Source: an uncultured Clostridia bacterium (GTDB lineage: Bacteria; Bacillota; Clostridia; Christensenellales; Aristaeellaceae). Taken from it: a stretch of DNA of 34,404 nucleotides. The position numbers and the translations under genes were made by a program. The notes beneath the pieces were generated by a model. The model was not told the DNA's origin and made no database searches. It saw only the letters and a program-made list of their open reading frames with translations. The DNA is taken from assembly GCA_946414315.1 (NCBI GenBank), contig CAMKNZ010000020.1:1-34404 (forward strand), read 5' to 3'. The stretch's first letter is position 1, and every line of letters begins with the position of its first letter. Of this stretch, positions 20,779 to 34,404 are shown piece by piece.

Positions 20779-20832
20779 GGCGTTTCCTCCTTTGCTGCTC
20801 CCAGCGTACCGCACAAGGGGAGAAAACACCCG

Positions 20833-21021
20833 GACACGGCGTGTCTGTTTTGGGAAACCGCCGGCAAAACAGAAAAAGCCGGAAGCGTTGCAGATCAACG
20901 CTTCCGGCAATTCTTCCGAAACGGGGAAAACGGAAAAACCAGGGGCTGAAACCCGGGAGTCCTTGCGCCGCAAGGGTTTCCGGGACCGGACACGCCGTGT
21001 CACCCCCGGGCAAAATTTTTT
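20833..21021. repeat. dispersed repeat, copy A (left bracket)
   Basis: About 190 bp from GACACGGCGTGTC (20833-20845) to GACACGCCGTGTC (20989-21001) and a run AAAATTTTTTT. It shares spaced blocks with 25849-26040: TTTTGGG-AAA, CAGATCAACGC, ACCCGG-AG, CTTG-GC, then the closing hairpin and T-run. Interior: a perfect 13-bp hairpin GCCGGAAGCGTTG/CAACGCTTCCGGC (20878-20908). Confidence 0.65.
20873..20908 (-). terminator. minus-strand terminator in repeat copy A
   Basis: The 13-bp perfect hairpin 20878-20890/20896-20908 (loop CAGAT) is followed on the minus strand by TTTTTCTGTTTTG. It probably ends the SIMPL-protein transcript. Confidence 0.78.
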
Positions 21022-21719
21022 TATTTCACCCGGAAGGTCACGATCACGCCGGCGCTGACGCAGATCTTCGCGGCCTGCACCACCGTGGGCGAATCGGTTG
21101 CGGCTTCCTCCCCGGCAACCTTCCGGGAGAAGTTGTTCACGCCGCTGTCATAGCTGAATACGGAGCCTTCCTCGATGCTCACGATTTCGATTTCACCCAG
21201 CCCGGCGGCTTCCGCCAGGATGGCCGCCTTTCCCTTCGCGTCCTCCACCGCGGCCTTCAGGGCTTCCTTCCGGGCCTCGGTATCGTCCGTCACGGAGAAG
21301 CTGACCCCGTCCAGGGTGTTCGCCCCGGCGCCGAAGGCCATGTCGATGACCTCGCCAACCCGGCCCATGTCCGTCACCTTGATGGCCAGGCTGCTGTTCG
21401 CGTTGTAGGCGACGATCTCCTCCACATCCTTGGAATAGTCATACACGGCATACAGGTTGATATACCCGGTGCTGATGTCCTCTTCCTTCAGGCCGGCTTC
21501 GGTCAGCACCGTCCGGATGGAGGCGATGACTTCGTTGGCCGCGGCCTGGGCTTCCAGCGCGTCCTTTTTCCGCACGTTCACGCCCACGGACACCACCGCC
21601 GTATCGGCGGTCACCAGCGTTTCGCCGCTCCCGTTCACGGTGATCGTCTGCTCCGCCAGGGCGGAAGAGATCCCCAGGACCATAACCAGAACAAAAAACA
21701 GTGCAACAATCCTACGCAT
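21021..21719 (-). CDS. secreted SIMPL-domain (DUF541/YggE-like) protein
   Basis: The product has 232 residues. From the ATG at 21719 (AAAGGAG upstream) it has a signal peptide RRIVALFFVLVMVLGISSALA. The SIMPL domain follows: ITVNGSGETLVTADTAVVSVGV, EDISTGYINLYAVYDYS, and an alternating strand/helix body with AVEDAKGKAAILAEAAGL, ending CVSAGVIVTFRVK. YggE-like proteins are periplasmic or secreted and bundled in oligomers, with roles in stress tolerance that are not well defined. It lies between the repeat copy and the toxin-antitoxin genes, so it looks like a cargo gene of this segment, although the family is common in chromosomes. Confidence 0.9.
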   Translation of the reverse strand: MRRIVALFFVLVMVLGISSALAEQTITVNGSGETLVTADTAVVSVGVNVRKKDALEAQAAANEVIASIRTVLTEAGLKEEDISTGYINLYAVYDYSKDVEEIVAYNANSSLAIKVTDMGRVGEVIDMAFGAGANTLDGVSFSVTDDTEARKEALKAAVEDAKGKAAILAEAAGLGEIEIVSIEEGSVFSYDSGVNNFSRKVAGEEAATDSPTVVQAAKICVSAGVIVTFRVK

Positions 21720-21793: not shown

Positions 21794-22003
21794 TTATTTC
21801 CACGCCAGTTTTAATTCCCGCCTGTTTTTTGCGCAGTCCCCCAGATACAGGTTGATCAGCGTCTGATAGGGAATGCCGCTGCTGGCCGCCTGTTCCTTGA
21901 AATAATTGATCGTCTCCACATCCAGGTTGATTGTGATCTGGCTTTTCAGTTTTTTTGCATACGGGTTTGTCTTTGCGTTGGAGAAATCATATTCTTTTCT
22001 CAT
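21794..22003 (-). CDS. brnA: BrnA-like antitoxin
   Basis: The product has 69 residues. It matches the BrnA/CopG-type antitoxins: a charged N-terminus (KEYDFSNAKTNPYAKKLKSQ) and a ribbon-helix-helix (QITINLDVETINYFKEQAASSGIPYQTLINLYL). It lies 13 nt after the BrnT-like toxin gene, in the usual toxin-first order, and would neutralise BrnT and repress the operon. The ATG at 22003 follows AGAGGTGA. The pair is more A+T-rich than the surrounding genes. Confidence 0.9.
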   Translation of the reverse strand: MRKEYDFSNAKTNPYAKKLKSQITINLDVETINYFKEQAASSGIPYQTLINLYLGDCAKNRRELKLAWK

Positions 22004-22016
22004 TTTCTTTCACCTC

Positions 22017-22292
22017 TCAGCCATAGTAGGAGGATTCGGTCTTCGTTGCTTTTCGGGCGGAGATGATCCGGATGATGTTTTCCTCTGACCGGCAGCAGTG
22101 GCATACGATCAAAAGATTTGCCCTGATACTCATCCCAAGAATGATGAATCTTTCTTCTTCCAGAGAATGATCAGGATCATTGATCAAAAGAGCACGTTCA
22201 TCGTAAAATACGGTTTCAGCTTCTTCAAAAGAAATCTTATGTTTGGATTGGTTAATCCTGTTCTTATTCTCATCCCACTCAAAAGTCAGCAT
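22017..22292 (-). CDS. brnT: BrnT-like ribonuclease toxin
   Basis: The product has 91 residues. It has the BrnT landmarks FEWDENKNRINQSKHKISFEEAETVFYD at the start, and RFIILGMSI near the middle, ending IIRIISARKATKTE. BrnT is a RelE-like ribonuclease that slows translation under stress, held inactive by BrnA. The ATG at 22292 is preferred; a longer frame would need TTG at 22316. BrnA follows after 13 nt. Strong -35/-10 signals lie upstream in an A+T-rich stretch. Confidence 0.9.
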   Translation of the reverse strand: MLTFEWDENKNRINQSKHKISFEEAETVFYDERALLINDPDHSLEEERFIILGMSIRANLLIVCHCCRSEENIIRIISARKATKTESSYYG

Positions 22293-22320
22293 ACAATTCA
22301 CTTCTCTCGTGCTCAATTAT

Positions 22321-22371: not shown

Positions 22372-22400
22372 GGAATTACGATTCCTGTAATCGTAATTCC
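22372..22400 (-). terminator. 12-bp hairpin at the end of the ImmA/IrrE gene
   Basis: A perfect stem GGAATTACGATT (22372-22383)/AATCGTAATTCC (22389-22400) with a 5-nt loop spans the stop codon. The minus-strand downstream run is AATTCATAATTC rather than a strict T-tract, so termination may be weak. Confidence 0.48.
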
Positions 22401-24367
22401 GGATACCCCGCGCTCTTCAGGTATTCCTGCACTTCCGGGATCGTATCCATAAAGCAGCAGTCCAGGATCTCCCCGTAATGCCCCCGGGGCCCGTAGCTCT
22501 TCACCGAGAACCCGGCCTTGTCCAGCATCAGCCGGGACAGCCAGGGCGGCAGGTGCAGCGCGATGCAGATCGCCACCACGACGTCCGGTTCATACCGGGA
22601 GTTTTCGTTGTTCCGGTAGCGCTGGATCGTCCGGGTGGAGACCTGGGCCTGGGCGGCCAGGTCTTCCACCGAGATCCGGCTCTCGTCCCGGTTTTCCATC
22701 AGGTAGACCAGGGCGTCCGGGAAGGCGCAGGGCATGGAGGCCATCAGCCGGTTCCGCCGTGCCAGCCGCTCCCGGGCGGTCAGGCTCAGCCGCCGGTCCA
22801 GGAACCGGTCGTATTCCCGCACATAGTCCTCATTGCTGTTCAGCGTGCCGAACAGCCAGACGGATTCCTCGTTCTCCTTCAGCCAGACCTTTTCAAACCG
22901 CAGGCAGCAGGCGTCCGCGTGGGCGTTGGCCCAGGGGGTCAGCCGGGCCCCTTCCTTCGTACTCTTCAGGAACTGGGGATCCACCAGGCACACATGCCCG
23001 TCCGCGTAGACGAAATCCCCCCGGCTCATCAGCTGGCGGAACTCGCCGCTCCGGTGATAAAGGTCCGCCAGCGCCTTCCGCCCGATGACCAGCGTGGCCT
23101 GCCCTTCAGGGGAGTGCTCTTCCGTAAAGGCGAAGGGGGTGATATACCGCCCGTCGATAAAGTTCACCGCGCCCTTGGCGGCGGGATGCCCCAGCTGCAC
23201 CAGCCGGCGCCGCAGGGTCGTGCGGGGCACGCCGTATTCGTCCGCCAGGCGGCGGATCACCCGGTCCCACCGGAACCCGGGATGGTTCAGGTATCCGTTC
23301 ACGGAGGGGCTGGTGCTGGCCTTCTGGAACAGCCGCCAGGCCTTGGGCCGGATCTGGTTCTGGGGCAGCAGCAGGGCGATGCTCCCGCCCCGGGCCTGGT
23401 GCTCCATAAAGCGGAGGGGATCGGCGTTGGGCCGCCCGATGGTGTTCCGCACCGGGGTATAGCGGACCTCCTGGGCGCTGGTGCTCATCAGCTTCTGCAG
23501 CCGGTAGAACAGCAGGTGCCATTCATAGTGGATGCACTCGTGCAGGATGTCCAGGTCCCGGCATTCCGACCGGGCCGCCTTGTTGATGACGATCGTCTTC
23601 GCCGCCACCGGCCGGGACACCGGCAGGGGAAACTCCGTCTCCCCGGTGATCTTCTCCTCCTGCACAAACACGTTCCCGTCCCGGAAAAAGAGGATGCTCC
23701 GGGTATGGTTCTGGCAGTGCAGGTTCATCTCGCGCACCTCCAGCCCCAGCCGCTCCGCCAAGGCCCGGGCGGTCCGCTCTTTGATCTCCTTCACGTCCGG
23801 CAGCAGGTTCTCCCACATCCGTTCCGCCCCGGCCTCGATCTCGTCGTCCCGCAGGATCGGCACCAGGTGCCGGTCCAGCTTCCAGAAGCTCCGCTCCGGC
23901 CGGTCCTTGAGCAGGTGCAGCTCCTGCACCTCGAACTCAAACCCGTCCTCCGTGCAGAACCACAGCCCCAGGCAGAACCCGAACCGCCCGGAAACGTCCT
24001 TTCCCTTTTCCTCCACCGTCAGGCCCGCGGTCACGTCGATGTCCGCCAGGAAGTCCGTCCGGTTCACCCGCCAGCAGGAGATCCCCCCGATCTCCATCTC
24101 CCGGGCCGTGATCCGCTCCGACACCACGGCTTTGCCCAGCAGCAGGCTCAGTTCGCCCTCCACCAGCTTGTCGTTCATCACCTGCAGGATCCGGGTGTAG
24201 TACCGCTCCCGGATGCACCGGTCGATATCGTCCACCACCGGCATCAGCCAGGTCTGCACCGGGCTCCGGGCCTCGTCCGCCCGGGTCCGCAGCATCTCTT
24301 CCACCGGGTCCTTTCCAGGCTCTTCTTCCTCAATCCAGTCGCTGTATTCCCTTACCGCCTGTTCCAT
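22376..24367 (-). CDS. large ImmA/IrrE-type metallopeptidase with C-terminal HTH
   Basis: The product has 663 residues. The zinc motif HECIH (276-280, in DILHECIHYEWH) and the later EHQARGGSIALLLP (322-335) match the ImmA/IrrE family, whose members cut phage-type repressors. A winged-helix-like VPRTTLRRRLVQL (380-392) lies in the middle. The C-terminal third contains an XRE-like HTH, ISVEDLAAQAQVSTRTIQRYRNNE (565-588). The N-terminal 250 residues are of unknown fold. Peptidase plus HTH suggests a self-contained regulator. The ATG at 24367 follows AAGGAG. The promoter lies within the 3' end of the previous gene, with a perfect dyad over its -10. The region is G+C-rich, unlike brnTA. Confidence 0.82.
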   Translation of the reverse strand: MEQAVREYSDWIEEEEPGKDPVEEMLRTRADEARSPVQTWLMPVVDDIDRCIRERYYTRILQVMNDKLVEGELSLLLGKAVVSERITAREMEIGGISCWRVNRTDFLADIDVTAGLTVEEKGKDVSGRFGFCLGLWFCTEDGFEFEVQELHLLKDRPERSFWKLDRHLVPILRDDEIEAGAERMWENLLPDVKEIKERTARALAERLGLEVREMNLHCQNHTRSILFFRDGNVFVQEEKITGETEFPLPVSRPVAAKTIVINKAARSECRDLDILHECIHYEWHLLFYRLQKLMSTSAQEVRYTPVRNTIGRPNADPLRFMEHQARGGSIALLLPQNQIRPKAWRLFQKASTSPSVNGYLNHPGFRWDRVIRRLADEYGVPRTTLRRRLVQLGHPAAKGAVNFIDGRYITPFAFTEEHSPEGQATLVIGRKALADLYHRSGEFRQLMSRGDFVYADGHVCLVDPQFLKSTKEGARLTPWANAHADACCLRFEKVWLKENEESVWLFGTLNSNEDYVREYDRFLDRRLSLTARERLARRNRLMASMPCAFPDALVYLMENRDESRISVEDLAAQAQVSTRTIQRYRNNENSRYEPDVVVAICIALHLPPWLSRLMLDKAGFSVKSYGPRGHYGEILDCCFMDTIPEVQEYLKSAGYPELRLQES

Positions 24368-24424: not shown

Positions 24425-24463
24425 AAGCACAATTATATTGTGCTTTTATCCAAAAAGCAAGCC
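24425..24463 (-). promoter_or_regulatory. promoter with dyad operator for the ImmA/IrrE-HTH gene
   Basis: On the minus strand: TTGCTT, a 17-nt spacer and TATAAT. A perfect 9-bp inverted repeat AAGCACAAT-3-ATTGTGCTT (24425-24445) covers the -10. It also spans the TAA of the helicase-loader gene. A dimeric regulator bound here would block polymerase; the downstream HTH protein is the obvious candidate. Confidence 0.7.
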
Positions 24464-24975
24464 CCCTTTTCACTCTTTTTTCCTTCCTCCAGCAGCGGCG
24501 CCGCCGCCACGCCCAGGGCCTTCTCCAGCTCTTTCCGGGCCCGCCAGGACCGCCGGAAGGCGCTGGCGATCACCGTGTTCACCTCGCCCGCGTCCAGCAG
24601 GGCCCACTCGTGCAGCTGGGCGGGATGCCCCACGATCCGCTGCACTTCCGCCGGGAGCTTCGCGAATTCCTCCCCGCTGTTGTAGATCCCCCGGCTCACC
24701 GCCCTGAGCACCAGGATCCAGGCGTCGTTCTCCGTGAGCCCGCTCAGCTCCCTGGCCTGCATAATCCTTTCGTTGATCGCCCCCGGCACCGGCGGAAAGC
24801 CCTTCGTGTCCGTGGCGATGTAGGCCATCAGGGCCTGCTCCACCGCCGCGTAGGGCGTATGCTCGAAGATCTTCTGCCATACGGCGCCGGTCGCTTTAAT
24901 ATTCCGGTCCTTCCGGAAGGACGGGTACATCTCTGAAATAACCGACAGGATCTTCGCGGTTTCGTTCTCGTTCAT
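24433..24975 (-). CDS. phage-type helicase loader (G40P loader-like)
   Basis: The product has 180 residues. The N-terminal 100 residues are helical and match loader/inhibitor proteins of the SPP1 G40P helicase type: ILSVISEMYPSFRKD, AVEQALMAYIATDTKGFPPVPGAINERI, then a C-terminal helical region. Such proteins carry the replicative helicase to the origin-bound organiser. Its start overlaps the organiser gene by 4 nt (ATGA), so the two are translated together. Its last codons carry the promoter and dyad of the next gene. Family call from memory is good; no experiment supports this copy. Confidence 0.82.
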   Translation of the reverse strand: MNENETAKILSVISEMYPSFRKDRNIKATGAVWQKIFEHTPYAAVEQALMAYIATDTKGFPPVPGAINERIMQARELSGLTENDAWILVLRAVSRGIYNSGEEFAKLPAEVQRIVGHPAQLHEWALLDAGEVNTVIASAFRRSWRARKELEKALGVAAAPLLEEGKKSEKGACFLDKSTI

Positions 24976-25766
24976 AGCGCCAGATCTCCAAACGTTTTTT
25001 CTCCCCGGGCATAGGCCAGGAACGGGTTCTCCGGAACCTCCTGCCGCAGGGCGGCTTCCTGCTGGCTTTTCTTCAGCCAGCTGTTGATAAACGTCCGGAC
25101 CCCCTTCCTGGTTTTTCGCCGCGTGGGGTTGGCCAGGCACCAGCCCCGCATGTTCCGCAGTTCCTGCTCTACGTTGATGTCCGGGTACAGGGAAACATAC
25201 TCATCGATATCTTTCCGGTAGACCGGGTGTTCCTTGCCGCCCAGCAGCGGGATCCCAATGACAGGCAGTTCCGTGGCCGCCGGCGGCGGCACGGAACTGC
25301 TCCCCCCGTCGTCTCCTTTTCCCTCTGTTTCTTCTTCTTTTTCTGAATATCTGGTTTCTGTATTCTGATATTCTGTATTCTTATATTCTTTATTCTTACC
25401 GAACAGATCCGAACAAACCTGAACATCGCTGAACACTTGTTCAGTGGTGTCCGCGTCGTTGAACACATGCTGAACACTTTCCTTTTTTGTTGAACGCGCG
25501 CGCCTTGTTTCGCCGCTTTTCCTTCCGGCGGCGCTGCGTTTTTCCCGCAGCAGCTCTTTCTTCTCCGCTTTTTGCCTGTACTGGCTCAGATCCTCCCTCA
25601 GCGTCTGCCTGATCATACAAAAGACGAGGTCTCCCCGGTCGCCTGTTTTCTGTTCCTCTTCCGTTCCAATATACGTGAGCACCGCCCTCATCACCCTGCC
25701 GATCTCGTCATCCGAGAGCATCATCAACGGCTCTTCCCAGCTCATCCTGAACTTGAACCATTCCAT
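24972..25766 (-). CDS. phage replisome organiser (DnaD-like)
   Basis: The product has 264 residues. N-terminal residues 1-90 (EWFKFRMSWEEPLMMLSDDEIGRVMRAVLTYI) match the N-terminal domain of phage replisome organiser/DUF6291 proteins. A hydrophilic linker (about 105-160) follows, with repeats EYKNT, EYQNT, ETRYS. The C-terminal part has VEQELRNMRGWCLANPTRRKTRKGVRTFINSWLKK, the conserved phage replication motif. It would bind the origin and recruit the helicase through the loader encoded next. The linker-coding DNA carries iteron-like repeats. AAGGAA lies upstream of the ATG at 25766. The helicase gene itself is absent, so the host's would be used. Confidence 0.85.
   Translation of the reverse strand: MEWFKFRMSWEEPLMMLSDDEIGRVMRAVLTYIGTEEEQKTGDRGDLVFCMIRQTLREDLSQYRQKAEKKELLREKRSAAGRKSGETRRARSTKKESVQHVFNDADTTEQVFSDVQVCSDLFGKNKEYKNTEYQNTETRYSEKEEETEGKGDDGGSSSVPPPAATELPVIGIPLLGGKEHPVYRKDIDEYVSLYPDINVEQELRNMRGWCLANPTRRKTRKGVRTFINSWLKKSQQEAALRQEVPENPFLAYARGEKTFGDLAL
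25341..25498. other. candidate replication origin: GAACA iterons beside a TATTCT-rich tandem repeat
   Basis: GAACA occurs at 25401, 25411, 25421, 25431, 25461 and 25472 (GAACG at 25492), mostly at steps near 10 bp. A perfect inverted pair CTGAACA-CT-TGTTCAG lies at 25429-25444. To the left, TATTCT occurs at 25361, 25369, 25376, 25384 and 25391, a 15-bp tandem unit that is very A+T-rich. The 10-bp step does not follow the codon frame, so the repetition is at DNA level. Iterons beside an A+T-rich unwinding stretch inside a replisome-organiser gene are known from phage origins. Not proven here. Confidence 0.6.
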
Positions 25767-25848
25767 TTCCCATGCTTCCTTTCCGTGCCCCGGGCATCCG
25801 GGATGCTGTTTTCGGAAAGAGCATATCCGAACGGGAACCAAATGACCC

Positions 25849-26040
25849 GGACACGGCGTGTCCGGTTTTGGGGAAAATGCCGGAAACGGAAAAACGGTCC
25901 TGCGCCTTACAGATCAACGCCTGCATGAGTTATCCACAGACAGAAAATAATCCACAGCCGGCCTGTGGAAAACCCGGAAGCCCTTGAAGCAAAAGGGAAG
26001 AAGGACCCGGACACGGCGTGTCCGGGTCAGGGAAAATTTT
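25849..26040. repeat. dispersed repeat, copy B (right bracket)
   Basis: About 190 bp, same orientation as copy A at 20833-21021, opened by CCGGACAC-GGC-GTGTCCGG (25847-25865) and closed by GACCCGGACAC-GGC-GTGTCCGGGTC (26004-26028), then AAAATTTTTTT. Shared blocks include TTTTGGG, CAGATCAACGC and ACCCGG-AG. Copy B holds DnaA-box-like sites that copy A lacks. The 396-bp gap 25767-26162 contains this repeat, those sites and a terminator, with no gene. Confidence 0.65.
25930..25972. other. cluster of DnaA-box-like sites
   Basis: TTATCCACA (25930-25938) is a perfect consensus box. TAATCCACA (25948-25956) has one mismatch, and TGTGGAAAA (25964-25972) is TTTTCCACA on the other strand. Three sites within 43 bp, about 170 bp upstream of the replisome-organiser start. 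CCACAG/CTGTGG (25952-25957/25963-25968) also forms a hairpin. Confidence 0.62.
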
Positions 26041-26128
26041 TTTCCGCCGCTGCCGCATATTGACAGCCGCTCCGCATGGACAAAAAACGCCCTTCCAGCG
26101 AAACAAAAACCCCAAACACAACAAAAGC

Positions 26129-27261: not shown

Positions 27262-28251
27262 ATGCCGATGAAAGACCGGCTCCTGGTGCTGTTAAAGACA
27301 CTGCAGGAGCGTTCAGATGACGAAACCTGGCTGACAACCGGGGATCTTCGCGCTGCGCTGGAGGCAGAGGGGCTGGACTGTTCCATCCGGACCCTGCGCA
27401 GGGATGTCCAGTCCCTGAATAACTGTGGTTATGACATTGCCGTCCAGGAAACGGAAGGCATGTTTACCAAGTATGCCTGGATGGGCCGGAAACTGTCCAT
27501 GCCGGACCTGCAGATCCTGGTGGATGCGGTGAGCGCCGCCCGGTTTATTCCGCAGAAACGGAGCGAGGAACTGGTTGCCGAGCTGTCAGCGATGGCGGGG
27601 CCTTCCCATGTGCAGGAACTGAAGCCCCAGATCCTGGTGTCGGAACATGTCAAGGCGAAAAATAAGAATATGATTTACGCCGTGCAGGAGATCCGCAGGG
27701 CGATAGACCGGAACCGGAAGATCCGGTTCCGGTACCTGGAATACAACACGGAGAAGGAACAGGTCGTGAAGCACAAGGGGACGGAAGAGGAATGGTATGT
27801 GGTCTCCCCCTATGCCACGGTCTGGAATGATGACCGGTATTACCTGGTAGGCTGGTCGGACAAACGTAATAAGATCACGGTCTTCCGGATCGACCGGATG
27901 GAGGTCCCCAGGCAGCTGCCGAACAAGCGGGTGCCGGAACCGGAAGGTTTCGATATCCGGGATTATACGGACAAGGTCTTCCGGATGTACGGCGGACAGG
28001 AAGAAAAGGTGACGCTGCGATGCAGCATGGAGATCCTGGACCAGGTCATCGACCGGTTCGGGGATGGAATCGAGATCAAACCCGGCAGGAAACATTTTAC
28101 CGTGACTGTGCCGGTATCTCTGAGCACGACGTTCTATGCCTGGGTGTTCCAGTATGTGGGGAAGATGAGCATCCTGGCACCGGAGTATGTGAGAGAGGCG
28201 TATGCCGGGTACCTGGAAGAAGCGTTGGATGATGTGCTGGGGGAAGACTGA
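27262..28251 (+). CDS. WYL-domain transcriptional regulator upstream of BREX
   Basis: The product has 329 residues. It has an N-terminal winged helix of the HTH_11 type (MKDRLLVLLKTLQERSDDETWLTTGDLRAAL ... SIRTLRRDVQSLNNCGYDI), a WYL domain (about 140-225: IRFRYLEYNTEKEQVVKHKG and VVSPYATVWNDDRYYLVGW), and a C-terminal WCX-like dimerisation part. BrxR-type WYL proteins repress BREX loci from this position; binding of a nucleic-acid ligand is thought to relieve repression. It is about 40 nt upstream of the BREX genes and same-strand. The start at 27262 or the next ATG (27268) cannot be separated; AGAGGA lies upstream. A new BREX-specific repressor is my inference. Confidence 0.85.
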   Translation: MPMKDRLLVLLKTLQERSDDETWLTTGDLRAALEAEGLDCSIRTLRRDVQSLNNCGYDIAVQETEGMFTKYAWMGRKLSMPDLQILVDAVSAARFIPQKRSEELVAELSAMAGPSHVQELKPQILVSEHVKAKNKNMIYAVQEIRRAIDRNRKIRFRYLEYNTEKEQVVKHKGTEEEWYVVSPYATVWNDDRYYLVGWSDKRNKITVFRIDRMEVPRQLPNKRVPEPEGFDIRDYTDKVFRMYGGQEEKVTLRCSMEILDQVIDRFGDGIEIKPGRKHFTVTVPVSLSTTFYAWVFQYVGKMSILAPEYVREAYAGYLEEALDDVLGED

Positions 28252-28292
28252 ATCAAGGCAGATTCTATGTTAAAAATGTAGGGGTGCTGTTA

Positions 28293-29216
28293 ATGAAGTT
28301 GGGTAAATTACAGGAAGTGGATATCCGAAAGATTTGGGCGCACGAACAATATGATTTTTCCAAGTGGCTTGCGTCTGAAAGCAATATACAGGAACTGGGG
28401 GATACGTTGGGGTTGAGCCTGACGGATATTGAAACAGAGAAATTCGTTGGTAATTATCGCTGTGATATTCTCTGCAAAGACGAGATCACCGGGAAAACCG
28501 TGCTGATCGAGAATCAGTTGGAGCAGACGAATCATGATCATCTGGGAAAACTGATCACTTACGCATCTGGTTTGGATGCGGCTGTAGTAGTCTGGATTGT
28601 TGCCGAAGCAAAGCAGGAACATGCCAGTGCAATTGAGTGGCTGAATCTGCATACGGATGATGCGCTTTCCTTCTTTCTTATTGAGATCCATGCTTATAAA
28701 ATCGGCGATTCTGATCCGGCACCTCAATTCCAGATTGTTCAGCAGCCGAATGATTTTGTAAAAACCGTAAAGAGTCTGGCTAAAAACGGGGATATGAACA
28801 AAACAGAAAGCAGTCGAGTGGAATTCTGGTCTCAGTTGAATGATTATATTGATCAGCACGGAAAACCATTTAATAAACATAAGGCAACCAAGGATCACTG
28901 GTATAATATTGCGGTAGGCTCATCTCAATGTTATGTTTCCATTGAACTGGTGAATATAAAGCATTTTATCCGAGTAGGATTATACATTCCGGATAATAAG
29001 GAATTGTATGATCATATTTATGAAAGTAAGGCTGATTTCGATGCGGCAGTCGGATATGAGCTGGAATGGCAGCGGCTGGATGACAAGAAGGCGGCCAGTA
29101 TTCATACCTGCATTCCGGGCCTGAATTTCAGTAAGCAGGATAATTACCCGTATTTGATGGAAGAGATCGTGAAGAGAGCGGTTGCAATCAGGAATGCGGT
29201 TCAGCAATATATCTGA
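28293..29216 (+). CDS. DUF4268 PD-(D/E)XK-type protein heading the BREX operon
   Basis: The product has 307 residues. The N-terminal nuclease-like part has GNYRCDILCKD (Asp58), then VLIENQLEQTNHDHLGKLITYASGL with Glu73 and Gln75, a D...ExQ variant of PD-(D/E)XK. The C-terminal 150 residues match the DUF4268 domain (SRVEFWSQLNDYIDQHGKPF ... NIAVGSSQCYVSIELVNIKHFIRVGLYIP). DUF4268 proteins occur in defence islands, often near restriction systems, but are not a core BREX component. ATG 28293 is preferred over GTG 28284 because AGGGGTG lies 6 nt before it. It is followed after 16 nt by brxA and shares its A+T-rich base composition. Nuclease activity is a prediction. Confidence 0.82.
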   Translation: MKLGKLQEVDIRKIWAHEQYDFSKWLASESNIQELGDTLGLSLTDIETEKFVGNYRCDILCKDEITGKTVLIENQLEQTNHDHLGKLITYASGLDAAVVVWIVAEAKQEHASAIEWLNLHTDDALSFFLIEIHAYKIGDSDPAPQFQIVQQPNDFVKTVKSLAKNGDMNKTESSRVEFWSQLNDYIDQHGKPFNKHKATKDHWYNIAVGSSQCYVSIELVNIKHFIRVGLYIPDNKELYDHIYESKADFDAAVGYELEWQRLDDKKAASIHTCIPGLNFSKQDNYPYLMEEIVKRAVAIRNAVQQYI

Positions 29217-29232
29217 TAACAGGAGTTTTAAG

Positions 29233-29844
29233 ATGGACACAAGACGAATTGATCATTACAGTGCTGGGATCATGAGTGAAAGCCCGTGGTTTTCGGAGTT
29301 CAGGAAACTGGTTCAGCTGTACCAAAGCGGATTATCCCCGAAAGAGGTACGGACTCGCTGCATTGAAGAGAATATATTCGGTATGAAGACGGAACGCCGG
29401 GTGATCAGCACTTTCCAGTATCTGAATCGCAGGTTCCAGAGTATGGATGATCAATTGGTTAATCTGTTTTGCAATTCGGATCTGGCGACACAGAAACTGA
29501 TCAATTTTATAGCAGTAGTATGCGGTGATCGCCTGTTCTTTGAATTCCTGAATGAGGTTTATCGGGAGAAATGCATCCTGGGCTTTGATGCGATTGAAGT
29601 ATCGGATATCAATGCTTTCTTCCGGAATAAATCGGTCGAATCAGAGGAACTGGCCGCATGGAAAGAAACGACATTCGATAAAGTCCGCGCAAGTTTCACC
29701 AATTTCATGCTGGATGCGAATCTGTTGCAGAAGGAAGGAAAGCGTTTCCTTCTGACGCCGCCGATTATGGATATCGCCCTGGAAAGATACCTTGAATATA
29801 ACGGAAAAGAAAGCCTGCTGAAGGCAGTAACGGGGGTGAGATGA
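29233..29844 (+). CDS. brxA: BREX protein BrxA
   Basis: The product has 203 residues. It matches BrxA (DUF1819) over its length: SESPWFSEFRKLVQLYQSGLSPKEVRTRCIEENIFG near the start, RRVISTFQYLNRRF, and the C-terminal FMLDANLLQKEGKRFLLTPPI. BrxA is a small DNA-binding winged-helix protein and part of the BREX core. AGGAG lies 9 nt before the ATG at 29233. The gene ends with an ATGA overlap with brxB, as in a normal BREX type 1 operon. Confidence 0.95.
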   Translation: MDTRRIDHYSAGIMSESPWFSEFRKLVQLYQSGLSPKEVRTRCIEENIFGMKTERRVISTFQYLNRRFQSMDDQLVNLFCNSDLATQKLINFIAVVCGDRLFFEFLNEVYREKCILGFDAIEVSDINAFFRNKSVESEELAAWKETTFDKVRASFTNFMLDANLLQKEGKRFLLTPPIMDIALERYLEYNGKESLLKAVTGVR

Positions 29845-30422
29845 CGATGACATTTGAAGAAAGACTGGATCAGGTCGAAGTCATGATCAAAAAGCCGTCT
29901 TTCCGCCAGAACAAAGGGTTGGGGAATGAGGTCGGTTATTATATCTTTGATTACCCTCCGGAAAAGGAAATGACGGTCAGGGAGCGGGTCAAATATCTGC
30001 AGGAGAAGTATGAATCCTCTCCGGACGGCTTCAAGGTTGTCGTTTATGATCTGTATGATATCATCATGGATACGCTTGAGGAAAAAGGTTATATTGAGAA
30101 AACGGTGGAGATGGAAAGCAAAAAAGGCTTTGATCGGGTGATTCGTGCTGTAGGCAATACGATGCGGATTACCGCGGAGGACAGTCTGATTGTTCATCAC
30201 ATCAAGGAGAATACGCCGCCTAATTCCGTGGTGTTCCTGATAGGCATCGGGAAATGTTATCCAATTCTGAGATCTCATACCGTGTTGAACAATTTGCACC
30301 AGGTATTCGATGAGGTTCCTGTGGTGATGTTCTTCCCCGGGAAATATGATGGCCAGGAACTGGTGCTCTTCGGGGAAATCAAAGACGATAATTACTACCG
30401 CGCCTTCAAACTGGTGGACTGA
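29841..30422 (+). CDS. brxB: BREX protein BrxB
   Basis: The product has 193 residues, the usual length. It matches BrxB (DUF1788): FEERLDQVEVMIKKPSF, GNEVGYYIFDYPPEKEM, then FLIGIGKCYPILRSHTVLNNLHQVF and the C-terminal ELVLFGEIKDDNYYRAFKLV. BrxB has no known enzyme activity; it is required for BREX and is thought to act with BrxC and PglX. It overlaps brxA by 4 nt at ATG 29841; ATG 29847 would also be possible. It is followed after 13 nt by brxC. Confidence 0.95.
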   Translation: MTMTFEERLDQVEVMIKKPSFRQNKGLGNEVGYYIFDYPPEKEMTVRERVKYLQEKYESSPDGFKVVVYDLYDIIMDTLEEKGYIEKTVEMESKKGFDRVIRAVGNTMRITAEDSLIVHHIKENTPPNSVVFLIGIGKCYPILRSHTVLNNLHQVFDEVPVVMFFPGKYDGQELVLFGEIKDDNYYRAFKLVD

Positions 30423-30435
30423 GGAGGAAAAGAAA

Positions 30436-33400
30436 ATGACGATTCAGGAGATATTTGTCAAATCCATTACCCGCGATGTGAAGGGTGTTATCAAAGTCGG
30501 TCAGGATGAGGACGCCAATGTAAAACAGGAACTGGAAGAATATGTTGTTACCCGGGAACTGCAGAAGCATATCGCCCGGTTCTTCGAAGCGTATAAGAAA
30601 GGCATCACCGGTAATACAGATAAAATGGGTGTCTGGATCAGCGGCTTCTTTGGCAGCGGTAAATCTCATTTTCTGAAGATTCTGTCTTACTTGCTCGAAA
30701 ACAGGGTGGTGGATGGAAAACGGGCGATTGATTATTTCAAAGAGGATCATAAGATTGATAACGGTATGGTCCTGGCCGATATGGAGCTGGCGGCGGATAC
30801 ATCGGCGGATGTGATTCTGTTCAACATCGATTCAAAAAGCGAGATGGCCGGTAAGCAGGATAAAGAGGCGATTCTCTCTGTCTTCCTGAAGGTTTTCAAT
30901 GAGATGCAGGGCTTTTATGGCACCAATCCGCATATTGCGGATCTGGAACGGAATCTGTATTATGACGGCCGGTATGATGAATTCAAACAAAAGTTTGAGG
31001 AAGCCAACGGCGATCCTTGGACCGAAGCCCGCAATGAATTTGATTACAGCCAGGATGATGTGGTGGATGTCCTGGTGGACATGGGCGTGATGTCAGAAGA
31101 AGCCGCCCGAAATCTATGTGAGAAAGCCTTCACGCCTTATCCTAAGAGCATCGAGGATTTTGCCCGCATGATCAAAAAATATGCGGAAAGTAAGGGCAAA
31201 AACCATCATGTGGTTTTCCTGGTCGATGAGATTGGTCAGTATATCGGTACGGATCCTGGCCTGATGCTGAACCTGCAGACTGTGACAGAGGATCTGGGCA
31301 CTGCCTGCCAGGGCAAAGCCTGGGTTATTGTTACCAGCCAGCAGGATATTGATTCTGTGATCAAGGTCAAGGGGAATGACTTTTCCAAGATCATGGGTCG
31401 TTTCGATACGCGTTTATCCCTATCTTCCGCCAATGTGGATGAAGTGATTAAAAAGAGAATCCTGGAAAAAACGCCTGTTGCCGCCCAGACGCTGGAAGTG
31501 TTGTATGAGGAAAAAGCAACCTCGCTGAAAAATCTGATTTCTTTCAATGACGGGATTGAGAAAAAACTGTATTCCAGTAAAGAGAATTTCGCGGAGGTTT
31601 ATCCCTTTGTGCCTTATCAGTTCAATCTCCTGGGCGACGTGCTGACGCAGATCCGGACCCATGGCGCTTCCGGGAAGAGCCTGGCCGACGGCGCCCGTTC
31701 CATGCTGGCTTTGTTTAAGGAATCCGCAGAAAGGATCATGGATAAACAGCCGGGGGCTTTGGTTCCGTTCCATTTCTTCTATGATGCCTTGGAACAGTTC
31801 ATTGAGCATAATCACCGGGATGTGATTACCCGGGCTCTGGCCAATGAGTATATCAATCCGGATCATGAAAAGGAGAATTTCGCGGTTAATGTTCTGAAGG
31901 TCCTCTTCATGATCAAATACGTCAAAACGATCAAAGCGAATAAGGAAAACATTGCAAGCCTCATGGTTTCCGATGTTGATGATGATCGCCTCGCGTTGAT
32001 CAGGAAAGTGGAGGAAGCCCTGGAAGTTCTGGAAAAGCAGTGCGTAATTCAGAAAAACGGCGAGATTTACATTTTCCTGACTAATGAGGAACAGGAAATC
32101 CAGCGCATGATTGAAGGCCAGAATGTCGAAATGGCTGAGATCAATGCGAAAATCGCCGAGCAGATCTTTGACGGTACCTTTACGGATAAGAAATACCGCT
32201 ATCCCGCGTTTAACGGCCGTTATGCTTTCCCCTTTAACCAGGTGGTGGATGACCGGCCGTACAAGGGAAGCACCGGCCATGATCTGACGCTGCGGATTAT
32301 CACTCCGAACTGCGGGGACAATACAGATGAGGCAACCATGCGCCTCACATCCGGTCAGAGCAATGTGGTCCTGGTTGTTCTGCCGGAAGACCGGGCATTT
32401 ATCAATGAGATTACAGCCAGTCTGCAGATTGAAAAATTCCTGCGCCTGGATGCGACCAATACTGTTGCCAAATATGAAGAAATCAAAGCAATCAAGAAAA
32501 TAGAAATGCGGGACCACAGCAATAATGCGCAGACGTTCCTGAAGGAAGCGCTTCGGAATGCGGATCTGTATGTGGGCGGCGACAGGCTGCAGTCCACCGC
32601 AAAGGAAATTACATCCAGGATCAATGAAGCCCTGGCGAAACTGGTTGACACTGTTTATCACAAGCTCAGCTATATCACTGCGGCAAAGAGCGAAGCGGAT
32701 GTCCGGACACTGATTCAGGGAACCGGCGCGCAGATTACTTTGGATCTGGGAAAAGCGGATACACAGAATCAGCTGGCGCTGAATGATATGCGGGACTATA
32801 TTGCCCAGAACACAGCGAAGCATATGAAGACATCCATGAAGACACTCATGGATCGCTTTACCAGATCACCGTACGGTTTCATTGAGGATGATGTGGAATG
32901 GCTTGTGGCTAAGCTGTTCCGGGATGGGGATATTGGACTGTTTATTAACAATGAAGCGGTCACAACCTTCTCAAAGAGCGTGGATGAGATCGTCCGGTTT
33001 ATTACCCGCAAGGAATATGTTGAGAAACTGATGACGGAGCAGCGGGAAAGGACTTCTGAACGGGCTCTCAAAGCTACAAGGGATATCATGAAGCGTTTGT
33101 TCAATGTCACTCCCAGCGCGAATAACGAAGATGATCTGATGAAGAGTTTCCTGGGCTATGCCAAAGGAATGAAGCAGGATCTGGAAAAAATCGAAATTCG
33201 TTATCAGAATCAGCCCAAATATCCGGGAAAGCAGGTTGTTTCAGACGGCAAGAAGCTTTTGAACAATGTACTGATGCTGGATTATTCGTCCGCGTTTTAT
33301 AAAAAGATCCTGGAAGACCAGGAGGATTATCTGGATTTCGCGGATGATTTCGAGCCGCTGGATACCTTCTTTAAGGGTGATCAGAAAACGATATTTGATA

Positions 33401-34014
33401 AATCCCTTAAGTATATGGCCATCTATGATGACAGTAAGACCTTTATTGTGGATAAAGAACTGGAGGCTGTCGTCAGGGATATAAAAGATATCCTGAAGAT
33501 GGATAAACCGTATGGGAATATCTTTAAGCTGCCGGGATTGAACAGCCAGTTTGAGGATCTTTACCATGACAAGCTGGAAGAGACTGCAGAACCGATTCGT
33601 GCATCGATCAAGCAGGCGAGAATACGAGTAATGGATGAGGTTGAAGGAAAGATGTGTGAGTCTTCCCTTAAACCTACATTTGCTCATTGGTTCGATGAAC
33701 TGGAGAATAAAGCGGAAAGCTGTAACAATATTGCAAACCTGCAGAGCATTAATGTGGAAGTGGATGCGCTGAAGACCCGCTGCCTGCAGGAGATTATTGA
33801 TCATGAGCCCAAGCCTGTACCTGTGGAACCTGTGGAACCTGATCAGCCGACTAAGCCGGCGAAGGTCAAAAAAGTGTACAGCTTTAAATCCATTAATTCG
33901 TCGACTGCATGGGAACTGGAAACGGCGGCCGATGTGGATAAGTATTTGCAGGATTTGAGGAGTAAGCTGATCAGCAAGCTGGATGACGATACGGTCGTGC
34001 ATATTGAGTTCTGA
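30436..34014 (+). CDS. brxC: BREX ATPase BrxC
   Basis: The product has 1192 residues, the normal size. The Walker A motif is GFFGSGKSHF (70-79) and Walker B is VVFLVDEIGQYIG (259-271); TSQQDID follows as a sensor-like segment. The N-terminus (TIQEIFVKSITRDVKGVIKV) and the AAA+ core are typical BrxC, and the long C-terminal part is coiled and charged, ending KLDDDTVVHIEF. BrxC is the large ATPase of BREX that likely uses ATP to drive the PglX complex on DNA. GGAGGAAAAG lies 8 nt before the ATG. The next gene follows after 1 nt. No break or frameshift was found. Confidence 0.95.
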   Translation: MTIQEIFVKSITRDVKGVIKVGQDEDANVKQELEEYVVTRELQKHIARFFEAYKKGITGNTDKMGVWISGFFGSGKSHFLKILSYLLENRVVDGKRAIDYFKEDHKIDNGMVLADMELAADTSADVILFNIDSKSEMAGKQDKEAILSVFLKVFNEMQGFYGTNPHIADLERNLYYDGRYDEFKQKFEEANGDPWTEARNEFDYSQDDVVDVLVDMGVMSEEAARNLCEKAFTPYPKSIEDFARMIKKYAESKGKNHHVVFLVDEIGQYIGTDPGLMLNLQTVTEDLGTACQGKAWVIVTSQQDIDSVIKVKGNDFSKIMGRFDTRLSLSSANVDEVIKKRILEKTPVAAQTLEVLYEEKATSLKNLISFNDGIEKKLYSSKENFAEVYPFVPYQFNLLGDVLTQIRTHGASGKSLADGARSMLALFKESAERIMDKQPGALVPFHFFYDALEQFIEHNHRDVITRALANEYINPDHEKENFAVNVLKVLFMIKYVKTIKANKENIASLMVSDVDDDRLALIRKVEEALEVLEKQCVIQKNGEIYIFLTNEEQEIQRMIEGQNVEMAEINAKIAEQIFDGTFTDKKYRYPAFNGRYAFPFNQVVDDRPYKGSTGHDLTLRIITPNCGDNTDEATMRLTSGQSNVVLVVLPEDRAFINEITASLQIEKFLRLDATNTVAKYEEIKAIKKIEMRDHSNNAQTFLKEALRNADLYVGGDRLQSTAKEITSRINEALAKLVDTVYHKLSYITAAKSEADVRTLIQGTGAQITLDLGKADTQNQLALNDMRDYIAQNTAKHMKTSMKTLMDRFTRSPYGFIEDDVEWLVAKLFRDGDIGLFINNEAVTTFSKSVDEIVRFITRKEYVEKLMTEQRERTSERALKATRDIMKRLFNVTPSANNEDDLMKSFLGYAKGMKQDLEKIEIRYQNQPKYPGKQVVSDGKKLLNNVLMLDYSSAFYKKILEDQEDYLDFADDFEPLDTFFKGDQKTIFDKSLKYMAIYDDSKTFIVDKELEAVVRDIKDILKMDKPYGNIFKLPGLNSQFEDLYHDKLEETAEPIRASIKQARIRVMDEVEGKMCESSLKPTFAHWFDELENKAESCNNIANLQSINVEVDALKTRCLQEIIDHEPKPVPVEPVEPDQPTKPAKVKKVYSFKSINSSTAWELETAADVDKYLQDLRSKLISKLDDDTVVHIEF

Positions 34015-34015
34015 A

Positions 34016-34309
34016 ATGATGAAAATAGAAGATCTGAATCGTGAGTTTCATTCCTGGTCGTTCAGAAAGCGAAATCCGAAGGATCATATCTGGTGGGTTG
34101 ATCAGGTAGAGGCAATGGGGCCTATGTATTTCAGCTTTGATCGGGAAATGATTTTCAATTATTGGCCGGATTATCCTGACAATCTGACGGCGGAGCAGAA
34201 AGAGATTTTCGACAAGGAGAATCCTTACTGGGCGGCATTTTACAGAGGCGAGGGCGAGGCTTATTTGGCCGAGTTCAGAAGAAAACAGAAGAGGAAAAAG
34301 AATCCATGA
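34016..34309 (+). CDS. small uncharacterised protein between brxC and pglX
   Basis: The product has 97 residues (from ATG 34016; 34019 also possible). It is rich in Trp, Tyr and charged residues: KDHIWWVDQVEAMGPMYFSFDREMIFNYWPDYPDNLT, then EQKEIFDKENPYWAAFYRGEGEAYLAEF. It has no signal or membrane segment. It looks like the small acidic proteins now called DUF7675, which I recall from Firmicutes; this is low confidence. It starts 1 nt after brxC and overlaps the pglX start by 4 nt (ATGA-type), so it is translated with the BREX genes. It is not among the six standard type 1 genes. Confidence 0.72.
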   Translation: MMKIEDLNREFHSWSFRKRNPKDHIWWVDQVEAMGPMYFSFDREMIFNYWPDYPDNLTAEQKEIFDKENPYWAAFYRGEGEAYLAEFRRKQKRKKNP

Positions 34310-34368
34310 ACAAGACAGCGATCAAGAATTTTGCGATCTGGGCCAGACGTATCGTCCAAAGCAGCTAA
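34306..34368 (+). pseudogene. pglX: 5' fragment of BREX methyltransferase gene, stopped after 20 codons
   Basis: The ATG at 34306 opens MNKTAIKNFAIWARR, which I recognise as the start of type 1 PglX, the N6-adenine methyltransferase that marks host DNA in BREX. After codon 15 the sequence leaves the expected frame and ends IVQSS-TAA at 34366-34368. The remaining 36 bases show nothing recognisable. The cause could be a phase-variable inversion, an insertion, a frameshift, or the edge of an assembled contig. Only 20 codons are visible, so the diagnosis rests on the N-terminal match. Confidence 0.7.
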
Positions 34369-34404
34369 ATAACATTTGCAACGGAGTATGGCTAGGCAGC
34401 TTCA

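Follow-up and report, generated by a model that had tools for sequence, protein, structure and literature searches.

A replication origin inside the gene of its own initiator is already known from the phages lambda, SPP1, TP901-1, and Tuc2009. According to passages of PMC6316719, SPP1 gp38 binds direct repeats of oriL, which is located within gene 38 and includes an A+T-rich unwinding element. Initiation requires gp38, the loader gp39, and the helicase gp40 (passages of PMC6316719). ORF13 of TP901-1 and Rep (orf16) of Tuc2009 bind direct repeats in their own genes, and these repeats serve as the origin (passages of PMC8965321).

Here, we describe a replication module in the genome of an uncultured Clostridia bacterium. 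The whole stretch of DNA that was analysed (the window, 34,404 nucleotides) is the entire contig C20 of this genome, which comprises 2.24 Mb and is 60% complete. From its sequence, we consider it very likely that the initiator gene of this phage-derived module contains an intragenic replication origin in the style of SPP1, lambda, and Tuc2009. The feature looks like an origin of the Tuc2009, lambda, and SPP1 kind, with another putative DNA-binding domain, DUF6291.

As in SPP1, a helicase loader is encoded in the window; it belongs to the Pfam family named for G39P. The helicase gp40 is needed in SPP1, whereas no phage helicase gene was found among the window ORFs scanned. The rep gene of the Lactococcus phage Tuc2009 is annotated 'contains origin of replication'. 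Its linker has four CAACCA units at 11-bp steps, which lie between the N- and C-terminal parts and are then followed by other short repeats. When repeat pairs are counted for each distance (lag), the 16 pairs at lag 15 outrank the 12 at lag 11, and lag 5 also has 12. In TP901-1 rep, lag 15 is the strongest between 5 and 35 (16 pairs; lag 11 has 2). Both differ from the window in having no DUF6291 profile match, in their motifs, and in belonging to complete phages. In phage lambda, gene O likewise contains four annotated iterons (39034, 39054, 39078, and 39101). However, these are 18-bp iterons placed 20-24 bp apart (lag peaks at 20 and 23), unlike the short units of the window at 10-11 bp, and O has no DUF6291 profile match. 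In the Ruminococcus phage phiRgIBDN1, gp42 is annotated as a replisome organizer, and its C-terminal part is 41% identical to the window protein. The linker of gp42 contains 11-bp TGTCAACC repeats, with lag 11 the strongest (17 pairs), but gp42 has no DUF6291 profile match either.

The initiator gene and its surroundings

Table 1. Positions of the features of the module within the window.
Feature	Position	Strand	Description
Gene downstream of the loader	22376-24367		663 aa; phrog_4031 (unknown function, E 1e-68); XRE-type helix-turn-helix
Helicase-loader gene (Inhibitor_G39P, PF11417)	24433..24975	minus	ATG overlaps the initiator stop codon (ATGA)
Initiator (replisome-organiser) gene	24972..25766	minus	264 aa from ATG
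C-terminal domain	24999..25286	minus	Common to other phage initiators and to same-genus relatives with another N-terminal part
A-rich repeated stretch, candidate DNA unwinding element	25341..25400	minus	73% A+T
Core of the array	25396..25435	minus	Four 10-bp units head to tail, TGTTC(A/G)G+NNN
Repeat (iteron) array	25401..25496	minus	TGTTC(A/G) on the coding strand (one CGTTC), 7 copies, 10-11 bp grid
DUF6291 domain (PF19808), proposed origin-binding domain	25506..25757	minus	Residues 4-87, helical
Upstream unit	25835..26045		Two GGACACGGCGTGTCC palindromes 160 bp apart around DnaA-box-like 9-mers

The features of the module are collected in Table 1. The ORF as listed has 289 amino acids and begins at a TTG upstream of the initiator's ATG. 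The initiator protein matches PF19808 (DUF6291) with 41.6 bits, above the curated cut-off of 27.2. It also matches, weakly, the PHROGs 'replisome organizer' (E 4e-4) and 'replication initiation protein' (E 9e-4). The DUF6291 domain is followed by a linker predicted to be disordered and then by a C-terminal domain that is also found in a phage replisome organiser. The gene after the initiator matches PF11417 with 33.4 bits (curated cut-off 22, E 7e-8), so that a G39P-family gene, the helicase loader looked for beside an intragenic phage origin, overlaps the initiator stop. Against solved structures, the best row for the loader was 1no1, which is not significant (E 0.19). The preliminary description of this DNA had named the gene a replisome organiser with the layout of phage and plasmid origins, and this is supported by the PHROG match, the identity to phiRgIBDN1 gp42, and the adjacent G39P-type loader.

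In the predicted structure of the initiator, the N-terminal domain is helical and confident (pLDDT 93-98 for residues 1-80). The pLDDT is below 50 across most of residues 99-178 and about 70 in the C-terminal domain. Since the array and the A-rich stretch encode approximately residues 91-142, they appear from the model to sit where the protein least needs a fixed sequence. Structure comparison returned no solved structure similar to the model, so it is position alone that suggests DNA binding by DUF6291. A literature search for DUF6291 found no paper.

The module is surrounded by bacterial genes, and a Pfam or PHROGs scan of 30 window ORFs, out of 135 listed, found no phage structural gene. 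Instead of a working origin, this copy may therefore be what is left of a phage or of some other mobile element. The 663-aa protein encoded downstream of the loader reads HECIHYEWH by eye, an HExxH motif, and may be an ImmA-like peptidase-regulator. A BrnT toxin and BrnA/CopG antitoxin pair (21794-22316) lies between the replication module and a SIMPL-domain gene. On the opposite strand beside the module is part of a BREX defence system (BrxA, BrxB, BrxC; 27262-34404). The BREX genes are preceded by a WYL-domain gene and a DUF4268 gene and run towards the contig end. Near the contig start, a Card1-like endonuclease domain (PF09002, E 3e-7) is found at 967-2190. Card1-like nucleases accompany type III CRISPR systems.

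Repeats and an A-rich stretch within the coding sequence

On the plus strand, GAACA occurs at 25401, 25411, 25421, 25431, 25461, and 25472, and GAACG at 25492. The preliminary description had read these copies as lying at steps of 10, 10, 10, 30, 11, and 20 bp with GAACG as the last, and all of its coordinates and steps are correct. In addition to the seven direct copies, an inverted copy (TGTTC on the plus strand) is present at 25438-25442. It had further been argued that protein coding does not explain the 10-bp period, and this holds. Taken in coding direction, from 25492 to 25401, the direct copies begin in frames 0, 2, 1, 1, 2, 0, and 1; since they are spread over all three frames, no peptide repeat explains the array. 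Synonymous recoding also rarely gives six copies. When the gene was resampled with its own codons (200,000 trials), the mean was 1.4 TGTTC and the probability of at least six was 4.5e-5. Identical 5-mers 10 or 11 bp apart number 10, compared with a resampled mean of 1.0 (P = 1.5e-4; 20,000 trials). The initiator's coding sequence thus contains direct repeats that coding leaves unexplained. Because the TGTTC motif was chosen post hoc, after the sequence had been seen, the lag test on other genes is the better test.

Adjoining the array is the A-rich stretch, a candidate melting element. Its A+T content compares with 42% for the window, and only 83 of the 34,345 60-bp windows reach that level. 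A 15-bp A+T-rich tandem repeat had been noticed beside the array. It is confirmed at 25356-25398, with a period of 15, 2.9 copies, and a 92% match. Relatives usually have the matching order, in which the DUF6291 domain is followed by the repeats, the A-rich stretch, and the C-terminal part. Both signals are present in 26 genomic and 22 viral genes; the 10/11-bp repeats come first, ahead of the 6/12-bp repeats, in 23 of the former and all of the latter. Within the 45-base segment of the linker with the highest A+T content, the coding strand has more A than T in 48/49 genomic and 26/27 viral genes. On average, A+T rises only modestly above the level of the whole gene, by at most 0.08 (genomic) and 0.11 (viral) per 15-codon bin.

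One site in the array, GAACACTTGTTC at 25431-25442, matches GAAC-N4-GTTC as the preliminary description had pointed out. We take this pattern to be the Gram-positive LexA consensus, and with it a LexA/SOS box might control the initiator gene. The palindrome fits the pattern, but it lies approximately 325 bp inside the coding region and not at a promoter. In addition, the genome has 53 GAAC-N4-GTTC sites against 21 for the reversed control pattern. No match to LexA_DNA_bind was found in the genome searched, which is 60% complete. The earlier suggestion of SOS control is thus not borne out; it is the weakest alternative, and we give it almost no credence. A simpler account of the palindrome is that a direct unit of the array stands beside an inverted one.

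The true origin could also be the upstream unit with its DnaA-box-like sites, the internal array serving only for stabilisation or regulation. Compared with the DnaA-box consensus, this unit has one exact and two near 9-mers (25930, 25948, 25964), all three within 43 bp and flanked by the two palindromes. The paralogue of the initiator gene is preceded by a similar unit (69% identical, one near match). However, the window has 17 DnaA-box-like sites where 10.6 are expected, a total that 5 of 100 shuffles attain, and of its three exact sites two lie outside the upstream unit. The unit's third copy (20.8 kb) lacks a DnaA-box-like site. An origin in the upstream unit is therefore very unlikely, and the array within the gene is preferred. 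As an observation in its own right, this intergenic unit of approximately 185 bp, bounded by palindromes resembling GGACACG(G/C)CGTGTCC, has three copies in the genome (window 20828-21022 and 25835-26045; paralogue locus L002 1280-1520). It lies upstream of both DUF6291 genes, and the third copy (20.8 kb) precedes minus-strand ORFs. In the other 44 genomes of the same genus, the search for it returned only short matches (22-37 bp).

Repeat spacing in the DUF6291 family

The lag test covered genomic and viral genes. Genomic DUF6291 genes were taken from the genome of the window and its taxonomic order (28 loci and 40 further stretches, some weak matches being left out). This set includes the window gene and its paralogue, as well as the first dozen or so genes from which the lag-10/11 idea came. 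The viral genes, from IMG/VR, were collected later, and the best 80 of 481 relatives were kept. Some of the viral search patterns (KPKKPDTD, NENENVNE) come from the linker, which may bias the set towards linkers of this kind. The 88 eligible genes (52 genomic, 36 viral) became 49 and 27 after removal of 3 and 9 redundant ones. The domain end was placed with our own DUF6291 profile, and identical 5-mers were counted per lag over 45 codons (-5 to +40). As control lags, 7+8, 13+14, and 16+17 were chosen, which, like 10 and 11, are not multiples of three.

At lags 10+11, the 49 genomic genes have 342 pairs, where synonymous permutation leads to an expectation of 154.5. The 27 viral genes have 268 pairs, with an expectation of 117.8. 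The control lags 7+8, 13+14, and 16+17 give 43, 22, and 33 pairs in the genomic set and 22, 13, and 27 in the viral set. In stretches of equal length, lag-10+11 pairs number 8 (genomic) and 7 (viral) inside the domain, and 17 and 9 at the C-terminal ends. Per gene, p<0.05 is reached against dinucleotide shuffles by 24/49 genomic and 18/27 viral genes, and against synonymous-codon permutation by 15/49 and 14/27. Much of the periodicity persists under this permutation because it is also present in the encoded peptide. Linkers with five or more lag-10/11 pairs after the DUF6291 domain make up 25/49 of the genomic and 19/27 of the viral set, compared with 7/998 and 3/1,119 neighbouring open-frame tiles. 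At least three pairs are present in 51 of the 76 linker-bearing DUF6291 genes. In the stretch tested, 20/49 genomic and 5/27 viral genes have no more than two pairs; some of these (L014, L019) show other spacings by eye, and others nothing clear.

The repeats might be neutral products of slippage, in a linker whose protein sequence is little constrained. In favour of this, disorder is predicted for the linker, many relatives have low-complexity peptide repeats in theirs, and counts are also raised at the in-frame lags 6, 12, and 18 (190, 153, and 113 pairs in the genomic set; 146, 153, and 84 in the viral set). We put these in-frame lags down to the A-rich stretch. In-frame slippage would be expected to favour multiples of three, but lags 10, 11, 20, and 22 are high in the linkers and 13-14 and 16-17 are low. 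The motifs differ between genes while the spacing is kept: AACCAAA, AGGAACAAA, ATACGAA, CCGGCAAA, and AGCAAATGC are among those of the 19 genes printed. Linkers of another kind are found in seven genes of the window's genus (L004-L010), which have the same C-terminal domain with another N-terminal part. With 26-52% A+T, they contain 0 to 4 lag-10/11 pairs each, which also argues against slippage, and we regard it as highly improbable. Beyond these seven, L011 has 1 such pair, and the more distant L012 and L013 have 6 and 19. For five of L004-L010, stretches with flanks (L240-L244) were examined, and all five have the gene with this C-terminal domain and another N-terminal part beside a G39P-type loader gene. 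These pairs of genes, with 0 to 4 lag-10/11 pairs and without the phrog_4031 or BREX genes of the window, are possibly a domesticated phage replication pair.

The closest relative found is the paralogue in the same genome (L002, contig C10), which is 42% identical. At the equivalent place, it has GAGCA/GGGCA units spaced 11, 9, and 10 bp apart (by eye), followed by AAGAATAAGAATATAGATAAAGATATAGATA. The preliminary description had made its reading depend on repeats in close relatives of the organiser. The comparison supports the reading: the paralogue, with another motif, has such repeats, and so do many members of the family, though not every one. No clear lag-10/11 excess (21 pairs versus 16 at 7+8 and 16 at 13+14) is seen in 26 DUF6291 genes that have two domains or are short, a few of them truncated by contig ends. 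L079, L082, L102, L100, L075, and others form a separate group with two tandem DUF6291 domains and without such a linker. These tandem two-domain proteins are probably not initiators.

Initiators with other N-terminal parts can be compared in the viral set. Of 98 viral loci, 59 are without DUF6291, and 57 of these have the FYESKGW-type C-terminal motif, which was itself one of the viral search patterns; 39 are non-redundant. These 39 have an excess at lag 11 (212 pairs versus a mean of 35 at matched lags), and three or more lag-10+11 pairs occur in 31 of them. Taken as sequence evidence, these results support the view that the origin layout reaches further than the preliminary description claimed and is carried by many related genes.

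The neighbours of the family bear on a further explanation, in which the array serves as a set of operators. Either the initiator or the XRE-domain regulator next to it would then bind the array to control its own operon, and replication would not start there. An XRE-domain gene does lie downstream, one site of the array is a full palindrome, and the module sits among bacterial genes. However, the array is located approximately 270-366 bp inside the coding region. It is also followed, in the usual order of the family, by the A-rich stretch, which repression would not need. Furthermore, helicase or loader genes are common neighbours. A next ORF was within reach for 73 of the 88 eligible genes, and 11 of these ORFs match DnaB_C, 8 Inhibitor_G39P, and 6 an IstB-type ATPase, counts that may overlap between families and that include redundant loci and the window's own loader. 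Operator sites are thus an unlikely explanation.

Proposed mechanism and its meaning

For an origin inside the initiator gene, the following steps can be proposed. The N-terminal DUF6291 domain would bind the TGTTC(A/G) repeats in its own gene. With one helical turn from unit to unit, bound subunits would be aligned on one face of the DNA and could oligomerise. From its position and composition, the adjoining A-rich stretch would be opened by this oligomer. The G39P-type loader from the overlapping next gene would then bring a DnaB-type helicase, presumably that of the host. By analogy with SPP1 gp38/gp39/gp40, helicase loading would probably occur via the C-terminal domain of the initiator.

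With moderate confidence, we extend this to the family. DUF6291 would be a widespread origin-binding domain of phages and prophages, followed in most linker-bearing genes by its own one-turn array and then by an A-rich melting stretch. Initiators sharing the C-terminal domain would swap the N-terminal domain and the array as one cassette.

The proposal offers a testable function for DUF6291, a phage protein family without an assigned function. The rule of 10-11 bp repeats after the first domain, then an A-rich stretch, could locate the origins of many uncultured phages and prophages. If it is true, the DNA specificity of an initiator would be readable directly from its gene. Since a DNA-binding domain and its target would then be encoded together, the family would also be a natural data set for their joint change.
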